Part shown: piece by piece, positions 18,418-41,400 of the stretch
How positions within the stretch are numbered: the first letter of the stretch is position 1
Layout: each line of letters opens with the position of its first letter
Source of the DNA: Duganella sp. Leaf126
GTDB lineage: Bacteria > Pseudomonadota > Gammaproteobacteria > Burkholderiales > Burkholderiaceae_D
Length of the DNA: 64,000 bases
NCBI RefSeq assembly: GCF_001423125.1
Contig: NZ_LMNW01000034.1
Span: 507-64,506 of the forward strand
Direction of reading: 5' to 3'
Program-made: the position numbers and the translations under genes
The notes under the pieces: model-generated
The model's database searches: none
Seen by the model: only the letters and a program-made list of their open reading frames with translations
Told to the model about the DNA's origin: nothing

Positions 18418-19785
18418 ATGACGATCGGCAAACCAGTGCGCCTCCAGGGTCCCCAGGGGCACCACGCCCCGGCCGCTGGCGCCAGCGGGCTCGGGGCCGA
18501 CGGCGAACCGGATGGCAGCAGCGCTGATACGCTGGGCACCCCCGGCATCGAGCACTGGCAGGCGACCTACGTCAGCAAGGATGGCCTGGAGCAACGCGGC
18601 AATGTCTTCTTTGCCGCCATCGAGATGACGCGCATGCCGATGATCATCACCAATCCGCGCCGGCCCGACAATCCCATCGTGTTTGCCAACAGCGCCTTCG
18701 TCGAACTGACCGGCTACCCGCAGTCCGCGCTGCTTGGGCGTAACTGCCGCTTCCTGCAGGGACCCGACACCGATCCCGGGACGGTGGCCGAGATCGGCCG
18801 CGCCATCCGCGCGCAGCGCGCGGTTGCGGTCGATATCCTCAATTACAAGGCCGACGGCACGCCGTTCTGGAACGGCCTCTACCTCGGCCCCGTGTTCGAC
18901 AGCGACGGCAGGCTGCTGTACTACTTTGCCTCGCAGCTCGATATCACCGAAAAAACCAGGCAGCTGCAGTCGTCGCTGCAGTCGCAGAAAATGGAGGCGA
19001 TCGGCGCCCTGACGGCCGGACTGGCGCACGATTTCAACAATCTGCTGCACGTGGTCAGCGGCAACCTGGAACTGGCCACGCGCCAGCTGCACGGCGCCGA
19101 GGTGGCGATCGAAGCGCTCGCACGCAGCCGCAGCGCGCTCGACAAGGCGACCCGTCTGACCCAGCAACTGCTGACGTTCGCACGCAAGCAGCACCTGCAG
19201 CCGCGCCTGGAATCGCTGAACCAGATCGTCCTGGCATTGACCGACATGCTGGCGCCCACGCTGACGCCGGCGGTCAGCCTGCGACTGGACCTGGCGCCCG
19301 GTCTGCCCCAGTGCCGGGTCGATGCCGACCACCTGCAGACCGCCTTGCTCAACCTGGTCAAGAACGCGCGCGAAGCGCTGGCCGACGGGGGCACGATCAC
19401 GGTGTCCACCCGCCTGCTGCGGTCCGATCCTGGGTCGGCGCCGGCAGAGGAGCGCGAGCAGGCTGCTGCCGACACCGCGCTGCGCTACGTGGAATTGGCG
19501 ATCCGCGATGACGGACCCGGCATGACGGACGACATCATGCGCCGCGCGACCGAACCGTTCTTCACCACCAAGGGCCCGGGCACCGGTCTCGGCCTGGCAA
19601 TGGTGCACGGCTTTGCCGAGCAATCGCAGGGCAAGCTGCTGATCGCCAGCACGGTCGGCAACGGCACGACCATCACGCTGCGCTTCCCGGCAGTTGCGGC
19701 GGACTATGCCGACGGCGCAGGCGCCCGCAGCGGCCACGATGGCGCTGCCGCCGGGGCCGACAGGCGCAGGGAAGAAGGTGATTAG
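18418..19785 (+). CDS. LOV-domain blue-light sensor histidine kinase
   Basis: 455 residues from ATG 18418 with GGAG upstream. Residues about 60-180 form a LOV domain with the hallmark flavin-adduct motif GRNCRFLQG (Cys110), followed by ILNYKADGTPFWN and the YYFASQLDITE end. LOV domains bind FMN and form a cysteinyl adduct in blue light. The kinase core has GLAHDFNNLL (His204), NAREAL, DDGPGM and GTGLGL. The protein has no membrane segment. Close relatives are hybrid kinases with a C-terminal receiver. Here translation meets TAG at 19783-19785, yet the same frame stays open afterwards through a long linker into a receiver domain ending at 20772. The interruption may be a recent nonsense change, a readthrough site, or a real split into two proteins. 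Confidence 0.92.
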   Translation: MTIGKPVRLQGPQGHHAPAAGASGLGADGEPDGSSADTLGTPGIEHWQATYVSKDGLEQRGNVFFAAIEMTRMPMIITNPRRPDNPIVFANSAFVELTGYPQSALLGRNCRFLQGPDTDPGTVAEIGRAIRAQRAVAVDILNYKADGTPFWNGLYLGPVFDSDGRLLYYFASQLDITEKTRQLQSSLQSQKMEAIGALTAGLAHDFNNLLHVVSGNLELATRQLHGAEVAIEALARSRSALDKATRLTQQLLTFARKQHLQPRLESLNQIVLALTDMLAPTLTPAVSLRLDLAPGLPQCRVDADHLQTALLNLVKNAREALADGGTITVSTRLLRSDPGSAPAEEREQAAADTALRYVELAIRDDGPGMTDDIMRRATEPFFTTKGPGTGLGLAMVHGFAEQSQGKLLIASTVGNGTTITLRFPAVAADYADGAGARSGHDGAAAGADRRREEGD

Positions 19786-19938
19786 GATCGCAGCCAGCGC
19801 AGCAGCAACGCACGCAGCGAGGCGCGCGCGGAGGCGGGGCGCCGGCAACGTGACGACGAGCGCAGCGCGGAAAGCAGCGAGGAGAGCAGCGAGGAAAGCA
19901 GCGAGGAGAGCAGCGAGCCCGGAGGAAAGCAGCGCAGC

Positions 19939-20772
19939 GTGCAACGCGGTGACCAGGGCAGCGACGAGGCCAGCGAGCCCGGCGGAAAGCAGCGGAAAGT
20001 GCAACGCGGTGACCAGGGCGAAGACACGGACAGCGACCAGCACAGCAACGCGGGCAGTGACCAGTGCAGCGACGCGTCTAATGACTTGGGCAGCGACGCG
20101 GACAGCGACCAGCGTAGCGACGCGAGCAGTGACCAGTACAGCGATGCAGCCAGCGACCAGCGCAGCGACGCGAGCAGTGACCAGTACAGCGATGCAGCCA
20201 GCGACCAGCGCAGCGACGCGAGCAGTGACCAGTACGGCGACGCGGCCGGCGACCAGCGGCTCGACGCGAGCAGTGACCGGCGCAGCAACGCGATCAGGGA
20301 CGCGCGCAGCGGCGGGGACGGAAATGACCCTGGCCGGCAGCGCCGCGAAGATGGCAACCACGGACGTGACCACGTTGGTGGCAACCAGGCCGGTTCCGAA
20401 CATAGCCGCTGGCGCGCCAAGCGCATTCTGATCGTCGATGACAACCCCGAGATCCTGCTCGTCACCACCGAGTTCCTGGCGGCGCAAGGCTACACGGTGG
20501 AGGTTGCGTCCAGCGGCGAGCAGGCGCTGGAACTACTGGCGGCGGGACGGCCGATCGACCTGCTGTTCACCGACATCGTGATGCCAGACGGAATGAACGG
20601 CATCGACCTGGCGCGCGCGGTCGCGCGTCGCTACCCGCACATAAAGCTGCTGGCGGCAAGCGGATACATGGACCAGTTGCCGCCGCAGCAAGCCGGGTTG
20701 GTGCTCGAAATCATCCCCAAGCCGTTCCGCTTCGACATGCTTGAGGAAAAGGTCAGGCGGCTGGTGCAGTAA
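19939..20772 (+). CDS. Repeat-rich linker plus receiver domain, in frame with the LOV kinase
   Basis: 277 residues if begun at GTG 19939, which has GGAGGA 12 bases upstream; there is no in-frame ATG until inside the receiver. Residues 1-155 are hydrophilic and low in complexity, rich in Ser, Asp, Gln and Arg, with a 16-residue repeat. Residues about 158-277 are a receiver domain: ILIVDDNPEILLV (acidic pair), LLFTDIVMPDG (phospho-acceptor Asp), LLAASGY and EIIPKPFRFD (conserved Lys). The frame is the same as that of the kinase upstream and no other stop lies between 18418 and 20772 except TAG 19783. The product may be a separate response regulator, or the C-terminal part of a 784-residue hybrid kinase. 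Confidence 0.7.
   Translation: MQRGDQGSDEASEPGGKQRKVQRGDQGEDTDSDQHSNAGSDQCSDASNDLGSDADSDQRSDASSDQYSDAASDQRSDASSDQYSDAASDQRSDASSDQYGDAAGDQRLDASSDRRSNAIRDARSGGDGNDPGRQRREDGNHGRDHVGGNQAGSEHSRWRAKRILIVDDNPEILLVTTEFLAAQGYTVEVASSGEQALELLAAGRPIDLLFTDIVMPDGMNGIDLARAVARRYPHIKLLAASGYMDQLPPQQAGLVLEIIPKPFRFDMLEEKVRRLVQ
20113..20280 (+). repeat. 48-bp tandem repeat in the kinase-receiver linker
   Basis: Three full 48-bp copies (20113-20160, 20161-20208, 20209-20256) and half a fourth encode the 16-residue unit SDASSDQYSDAASDQR. The first two differ by one base. Looser SD/SE-rich repeats extend back to about 19860. The unit length is a multiple of three, so copy changes keep the frame. Confidence 0.9.
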
Positions 20773-22659: not shown

Positions 22660-22685
22660 CCGTCGCACCGACGCTGGCGCTTGCC

Positions 22686-23063
22686 GCCAGCGTCTCTGCC
22701 TTGGCGCCTCTCGCCAGTGTCTCCGCCTCGGCGCCTGCCGGCAGCGTCTCTGCGTTGACGCGTGCCGCCAGCGTCTCTGCGTTGGCGGCTCTCGCCAGCG
22801 TCTCCGCCTCGGCGCCTGCCTACACCGTCTCCGCGTTGGCGCCTGCCGGCAACGTCTCTGCGTTGGCACCCACTGCCAGCGTCTCTGCGTTGGCGCCTGC
22901 CGCCTGCATCTCCGCCTTGGCGCGTGCCGCCAGCGTCTCTGCGTTGGCGCCTGCCGCCTGCATCTCCGCCTTGGCGCGTGCCGCCAGTGTCTCTGCCTTG
23001 GCACCCGCTGCCAGCGTCTCTGCTTTGGCGCCTGCCGCCTGTATCTCCGCCTTGGCGCCGCAG
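22686..23063 (+). repeat. Fourteen 27-bp tandem repeats after the chemoreceptor
   Basis: Exactly 14 units of 27 bp. In the plus frame starting at 22686 each unit encodes nine residues of the type ASVSALAPA, and the last unit is followed at once by TAG (23064-23066). Frames on both strands are largely open because the unit lacks stops; on the minus strand the unit reads AKAETLAAG. The array begins 26 bp after the chemoreceptor stop. It may be a frame-shifted C-terminal tail, a separate short protein (a TTG at 22701 could start it) or non-coding sequence. Units are contiguous, so it is not a CRISPR array. Confidence 0.9.
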
Positions 23064-38400: not shown

Positions 38401-41400
38401 CCGCAACCTGGCGGCGCTTGCCTCCGATGGCGGGCAGGGGCAAGGACAATATCGCGCTCAGTTCGGTATCGCCGATATCCATCATGCCGGCCGCCAGCGC
38501 GAAACCGACGGCGCGCGCCTGGCTGGTACATACCTTGCCTCCGGCACGCAAGCGGGTGGGGCACTGTTTGACGCCACTGCGATCACACAGCCCGTCCACG
38601 CCGACGTGACCTCGTCCGGTACGCACCAGGTGAGCCAGACCGGACTGCATCGCGGCACGGCCCAAGCCATGCCCGATGGCAGCAATGGCGGCACGGCCCA
38701 AGCCATGCCCGATGGCAGCAATGGCAGCACGCTACACGCCCATGCCCACGCCCACGCCGACGCGGCCACGGCCGACGCGCCCACGGCCGGCGCGGCCCCG
38801 TTCATGCAGCGCATGACGCCAGGCGGCGTACCCGACAGCCTGCCAACGAGTGCCCGGGCCGAACCGTCGTCGCCATCGCTGCACGGTGGCCGCGACAGTC
38901 TCGGCGGGGCAGCCTGGCTGCAGGCAGCCAGCGTGCGCAGCAAGACGGTTCACGCGCTGCTGTCCGAGCGCGCCACCGTGATGGCGGCGCTGGGCAAACC
39001 GTGGGCGGCCGACATCGTGGCCGAGCTCGAGCGCGGATTGCAGCTGCTCGACGAGTACAAATCCGTCGCCGCCACACTGGCGCAGCGCTACGGCGAGCAG
39101 GTCGAACAGCTCGACGTGCAGCAGCTGCAGCGCAGCTGGCGCGAGGCCGAGGCCAGCATCTGGCCGCTGTCGTGGTGGCGCAAGCGCGGACTGACGCGCA
39201 CCCTGGCGGCCTTTCTGCGGGGCATGGACCAGCCCGACGTGGCCCAGGACCTCGGCCTTCTGGCGCGCGTGCGCGAACTGCGGGCCGACATCGAGCATTG
39301 CTGGACCGAACTGGACAACAGCGCGTCAGCCGTGGCGCGCGTCGCCGCGTTCGAAGCAGCAGTGTCCGAGGCCATCGCGGCGCTGGCTGCGCCGCATGAA
39401 GATGGCAGTGCTCTTGACGCTTGGGGCAGCAATGGCCGCGGGCTGTCGGCATCGCACGATGATGGACGTGCGCTGAACGCGCAGCAAAGCGATGGCCATG
39501 CGCAGAACCGGCTGCACAGCGACGGCCCTGCGCAGAACGCGCCGAACAGCGATGGCCGTGAGCTAAATGCGGCCTACGGCAATGGGCGCGCGCTGAACGC
39601 GCAGCAAAGCGATGGCCGTGCGATGTCCGCATCGCATGATGATGGCCGCACCCTGAACGCGCAGCACAGCGATGGCCGTGTGCAGAACAGGCCGCATAGC
39701 GACGGCCCTGCGCAGAACGCGCCGAACAGCGATGGCCGTGAGCTAAATGTGGCCTACAGCGATGGGCGCGCGCTGAAGGCGCAGCAAAGCGATGGCCGTG
39801 CGATGTCCGCATCGCACGATGATGGCCGCACCCTGAACGCGCCGCACAGCGATGGCGGTACGCTCTTCGCGTCGCACGATAGTGGCCGCGCCCCGGCTGC
39901 GCCTGGCGACGACAGTGCCGCGCTGCGCCAGGCGGTCGAGATGCTGGTTGGCGACGGCAACACGCAGCTTGCGCCGGGCGGTGCGGTCGCTGCGGCCGGC
40001 AAACGCTATGCCGGCGCGTTGGACACTTTGCATGCTGCGCTGGACAAGCTGGTACGGATCGGCGTGATGCGGCCGGACGGCGTGTCGCCAGCGCAGCAAC
40101 CGCCGGCCGACATGGCATTCGATGTGCTGCCGCTGGACCAGCTGATGCTGCGCTGCAGCTGCCTGCTGGCCGCCGAAGCGCGCCTGAAAAGCTGGTGTGC
40201 CTGGCGCAAGGTGCAGCGTGAGGCGCAGTCGCAGGCACTGGGGCCGCTGGTGGCCGCCATCGAATCGGGCGCCGTGTCGCCGGCGCAGGCCGTACCTGTC
40301 TTCGAGATCAACTACAGCCGCTGGTGGCTCAACCGTGCAGTGGACGGCGACGACGTGATCCGCAGCTTCGTCTCGGCCGAGCACGAACGGCGGATCGGCG
40401 ACTTCCGCGCGCTCGACCGCCAGTTCACCGAGCTGACCCGCAGCTGGATCCGGGCGCAGCTGTGTGCCGGTCTGCCGCGCACCGACGAGGTGACCCGCCA
40501 TTCCGAATGGGGCGTGCTACGCCACGAGATCGGCAAGAAAAAGCAGCATCTGCCGCTGCGCGAGCTGATGCACAGCATTCCGACCGTGCTTGGCAAGCTG
40601 GCGCCGTGTCTGCTGATGAGTCCTTTATCGATCGCCCAGTATCTGGCGGCCGACAGCACCGCCTTCGACCTGGTGGTGTTCGACGAAGCGTCGCAGATTC
40701 CCGTGTGGGACGCCATCGGCGCCATGGCGCGCGGCAGGCAGGTGGTGATGGTCGGCGATCCCAAGCAGTTGCCGCCCACCTCGTTCTTCGACCGCGCCGA
40801 CGCGGAAGACGACGAGGAGGTCGATGTCGACCTCGAAAGCATCCTCGACGAATGCATGGGCGCCAACCTGCCGACCATGAACCTGGCCTGGCACTACCGC
40901 AGCCGTAATGAATCACTGATCGCGTTTTCCAACCACCGCTACTACGGCGGCGACCTGGTCACGTTCCCGTCGCCGGTGGCCGACGACCGCGCGGTCAACT
41001 TCCACCACGTGGCCGGCGTGTACGACAAGGGCGGCGCGCGCACCAACCAGCGTGAAGCGCAGGCGCTGGTGGCCGACATCGTCGCCAGGTTGCGGTCGCC
41101 GGGTTTCAGGCAGTCGAAGCTGACCATCGGCGTGGTCACCTTCAACACCGAGCAGATGCACCTGATCGAAGACTTGCTCGATGAAGAGCGGCGCAAGGAT
41201 CCGGCGCTGGAACCGTATTTCCTCGACACGGACCTCGAACCGCTGTTCGTCAAGAACCTCGAATCGGTGCAGGGCGACGAGCGCGACATCATTTATTTTT
41301 CGGTCACGTACGGCCCCGATCAGAGCGGCAGCGTATCGATGAACTTCGGTCCGCTGAACCGCGATGGCGGCGAGCGCCGCCTGAACGTGGCGATCACGCG

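Follow-up and report, generated by a model that had tools for sequence, protein, structure and literature searches.

Apparent interruption of a LOV hybrid histidine kinase gene by a nonsense codon beside an expanded repeat linker in Duganella sp. Leaf126

The receiver-less architecture of LOV histidine kinases is functional in Caulobacter (LovK) and Brucella (LOV-HK). In Caulobacter, LovK and LovR constitute a known pair of separate kinase and receiver (PMC4844311). LOV-HK-REC hybrids, including those of Massilia, Sphingomonas, Methylobacterium and two genomes of the genus studied here (G032 and G074), join the kinase to a receiver by a linker of at most ~45 residues. We analysed a stretch of 64,000 nucleotides from Duganella sp. 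Leaf126 (hereafter, the window) that contains a locus with the same domain order and frame as these hybrids; its kinase is 43-73% identical to theirs and its receiver is homologous, whereas the linker occupies ~240 positions and the receiver is separated from the kinase by a TAG codon. The predicted 455-aa product shares the architecture of LovK and Brucella LOV-HK but, unlike them, groups by sequence with the hybrids; the loss of its receiver would be secondary. If the window receiver is expressed, the kinase and a single-domain receiver would act like the Caulobacter LovK/LovR pair; unlike that pair, the window receiver has no good start or promoter that we could see. No publication on such a split was found in a literature search.

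Translation of the 785 codons from 18418 to 20772 on the forward strand revealed one internal stop and a terminal TAA, in agreement with the first-pass annotation, which had described a single in-frame TAG preceded by a complete LOV-HisKA-HATPase kinase and followed by repeats and a complete receiver. Both halves of that description were borne out by domain and motif searches (Table 1). The LOV domain retains the motif GRNCRFLQ, matching the GxNCRFLQ pattern of the photo-active cysteine, and codon 18745-18747 specifies its flavin-binding Cys; its first phmmer matches among solved structures were blue-light photoreceptor kinases and phototropin LOV2 domains, and blue-light-activated histidine kinases were among the best PDB sequence matches of the kinase. 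The phospho-acceptor motif AHDFNN (His at codon 19027-19029) and the ATPase glycine boxes are likewise intact. After the stop, 206 repeat-rich codons lead to a receiver carrying the motifs VDD, FTD and PKP, with the acceptor Asp at codon 20572-20574, and this domain shares 65-69% identity with the C-terminal ends of the hybrids in G032 and G074. One receiver Gly that is otherwise invariant in a comparison of 35 proteins is Asp in the window. Asp at that position is common in other receivers.

Table 1. Features of the LOV kinase locus, in window positions
Feature	Position	Strand	Evidence or remark
LOV histidine kinase, 455 aa, intact	18418..19782	+	Pfam; 71-73% identical to G032/G074 orthologues
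LOV (PAS_9) domain	18661..18951	+	Pfam PF13426, 4.1e-18; phmmer
HisKA dimerisation/phospho-acceptor domain	19003..19194	+	Pfam PF00512
HATPase_c catalytic domain	19321..19692	+	Pfam PF02518, 1.2e-19
TAG, sole internal stop of the frame	19783..19785	+	Absent from all relatives
Tandem-repeat expansion of inter-domain linker	19854..20319	+	TRF; absent from orthologues
GTG, best candidate separate receiver start	19939..19941	+	CGGAGGA 12 nt upstream
Receiver domain, intact	20404..20769	+	Pfam PF00072 (Response_reg), 1.3e-17; homology to orthologous hybrids

The first-pass annotation had placed a receiver at this position in known LOV hybrids and had proposed an alignment with related strains. Among the 35 related LOV kinases that we compared (from Oxalobacteraceae, Sphingomonadales, Methylobacterium, Pseudomonas and others), 34 continue through a short linker into the receiver in one open frame, none of them with a stop between the two parts, and one has no receiver. 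A search of 75 genomes of the genus yielded two orthologues, those of G032 and G074, each of which is encoded by one unbroken frame (579 and 582 aa) and whose receivers align to the window from SRWR onward; a receiver-only search of the same genomes found these two hybrid loci as its sole other matches at E<=1e-30, and no closer orthologue was found at E<=1e-165 in a family-wide search of 246 genomes. Genes for an MFS transporter and a GH6 protein lie near the G074 orthologue as they do in the window, so that this orthologue probably occupies the same locus as the gene studied here. The kinase and receiver do not share a frame by chance, because they are fused in the orthologues. That 34 relatives encode the receiver in frame with the kinase strongly supports descent of the locus from an ancestral LOV hybrid kinase that was cut in this lineage, and the interruption appears private to the window genome among the genomes compared. 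The earlier suggestion of a hybrid cut by a new nonsense codon thus gains strong support from orthologues and a paralogue that are continuous. This paralogue (L105, at ~198-200 kb of C12, another contig of the window genome) is a 55% identical hybrid that is open over 614 aa; given this intact second LOV hybrid, loss of the window receiver need not abolish hybrid LOV signalling. Another locus, L041, was considered as a second split case and rejected, as a downstream receiver was not seen there.

The long linker, which the first-pass annotation had overlooked, is itself new and has grown severalfold: the orthologous linkers in G032 and G074 are Pro/Ala-rich stretches of about 26-33 residues, whereas that of the window consists mostly of tandem units of 12, 24/48 and 60 bp, all multiples of 3. 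A second forward frame is also open across the linker, and openness alone is no evidence of coding, since this strand contains little T and every unit length is divisible by 3. By synonymous codon usage, the repeat linker matches the gene frame (+0.15 per codon) but neither of the other forward frames, consistent with past translation in the gene frame; this signal is supportive only, because the repeat copies are not independent. Translation of the array in the +1 frame (open from 19694 to 20431) was rejected on the same measure. Codon-position differences among the repeat copies indicated no clear frame, and no close copy of the linker DNA was found elsewhere in the genome. The short stretches flanking the array are ambiguous as to frame: the 31 codons preceding the TAG (GC3 = 0.68) and the 29 codons directly upstream of the receiver (GC3 = 0.59) fit the gene frame poorly in synonymous codon usage, and the stop may therefore stem from a history of small indels rather than from one base change.

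Relaxed selection on the window receiver left no sign in branch lengths or in pairwise nonsynonymous differences. In a tree of the 35 proteins, the terminal branch of the window receiver was 1.78 times as long as that of its kinase, against a factor of 1.83 over all tips, and the nonsynonymous proportion of the receiver relative to the kinase was 1.6-fold for window-G032, 1.4-fold for window-G074 and 1.7-fold for G032-G074. With ~50 changes on the receiver branch, we estimate that a loss confined to about the final quarter of that branch would escape this comparison. Therefore, either the stop arose recently or some receiver continues to be produced.

We regard it as probable that an ancestral LOV-HisKA-HATPase-REC hybrid of about 560 aa was interrupted by a nonsense codon, with expansion of the linker and with the output of the receiver reduced or lost. 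The linker has lengthened in this lineage, to about 240 positions from an original length of about 26-33, as units of 12, 24 and 60 bp were duplicated in tandem; the nonsense codon would have arisen just upstream of the array. The main product today would most likely be the 455-aa LOV kinase without a receiver, and there is probably little receiver, if any, produced for instance when ribosomes re-initiate weakly at GTG 19939. The interruption is likely to be recent, the stop being young enough for the receiver not to have decayed; the closest orthologues, at only ~72% identity, are a coarse reference for its timing relative to the repeats. A functional fission, in which one mRNA yields both a LOV kinase lacking a receiver and an independent 277-aa receiver that starts at GTG 19939 with a repeat-rich N-terminus, in the manner of LovK/LovR, would also explain a receiver that is intact and free of excess changes, and the separate Caulobacter pair offers a precedent (PMC4844311). 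The CGGAGGA preceding this GTG pairs well with the anti-Shine-Dalgarno sequence (-9.5 kcal/mol; -9 kcal/mol or better is reached by 3.5% of start-like codons between 18500 and 22600). However, its 12-nt spacing is long, the motif belongs to the repeat unit, whose second copy is weaker, the start lies 153 nt beyond the TAG, a search for promoter-like sites near the receiver gave none, and no relative shows a split of this kind; we therefore consider such a fission unlikely. The first-pass annotation had named GTG 19939 as the sole possible receiver start: its strong ribosome-binding match stands, but GTG 19999 and TTG 20086 are further, weaker in-frame candidates. That a fission has been caught in the act, the minisatellite repeat supplying the ribosome-binding site and start of the receiver, is also rather doubtful.

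An error of sequencing or assembly, leaving the real gene as an intact 784-aa hybrid with a long repeat linker, would account for the continuity of all relatives and for a receiver without decay, and the assembly is a draft of 35 contigs in which the TAG lies ~70 bp from a tandem array of a type poorly resolved by short reads. The TAG itself, however, was placed by TRF in unique sequence outside the array, and single-base consensus errors are rare in good draft genomes, which makes an error improbable. The first-pass annotation had also raised low-level read-through of the TAG, and a selected two-product system, in which a little long hybrid accompanies the short kinase, could draw on the slight leakage that occurs at any stop and on a frame that is open up to the receiver with codon usage fitting the gene. 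No support emerged for this: the orthologues lack the TAG, no tRNA with a CUA anticodon occurs among the 73 RF00005 matches of the genome, and RNA folding 3' of the TAG gave no structure beyond shuffled controls (z -0.17). Read-through of this kind is thus highly improbable, and a recoded TAG was rejected in view of the same tRNA matches.

Interruption of genes by nonsense codons is otherwise common, and the present case is neat but ordinary. The interrupted LOV hybrid offers a clear case from nature of a possible route from hybrid to receiver-less kinase, with intact relatives available for comparison, and could reveal the role of the attached receiver in a light-sensing kinase.

Minisatellites whose period is a multiple of 3 seem abundant in the window genome: nine such arrays lie in the 364 kb sampled (window included), compared with one in 300 kb of G074. 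An array of 14 units of 27 bp (window 22675-23059) begins 16 bp after the stop of a neighbouring chemotaxis receptor gene, and the G032 receptor, which is 81% identical, stops at the equivalent position and has no array. Further minisatellites occur at 39427-39891 of the window and at L168 17864-18599, L175 14083-14387 and L179 4872-5069; some lie inside genes, for example that of a CheA-like kinase.
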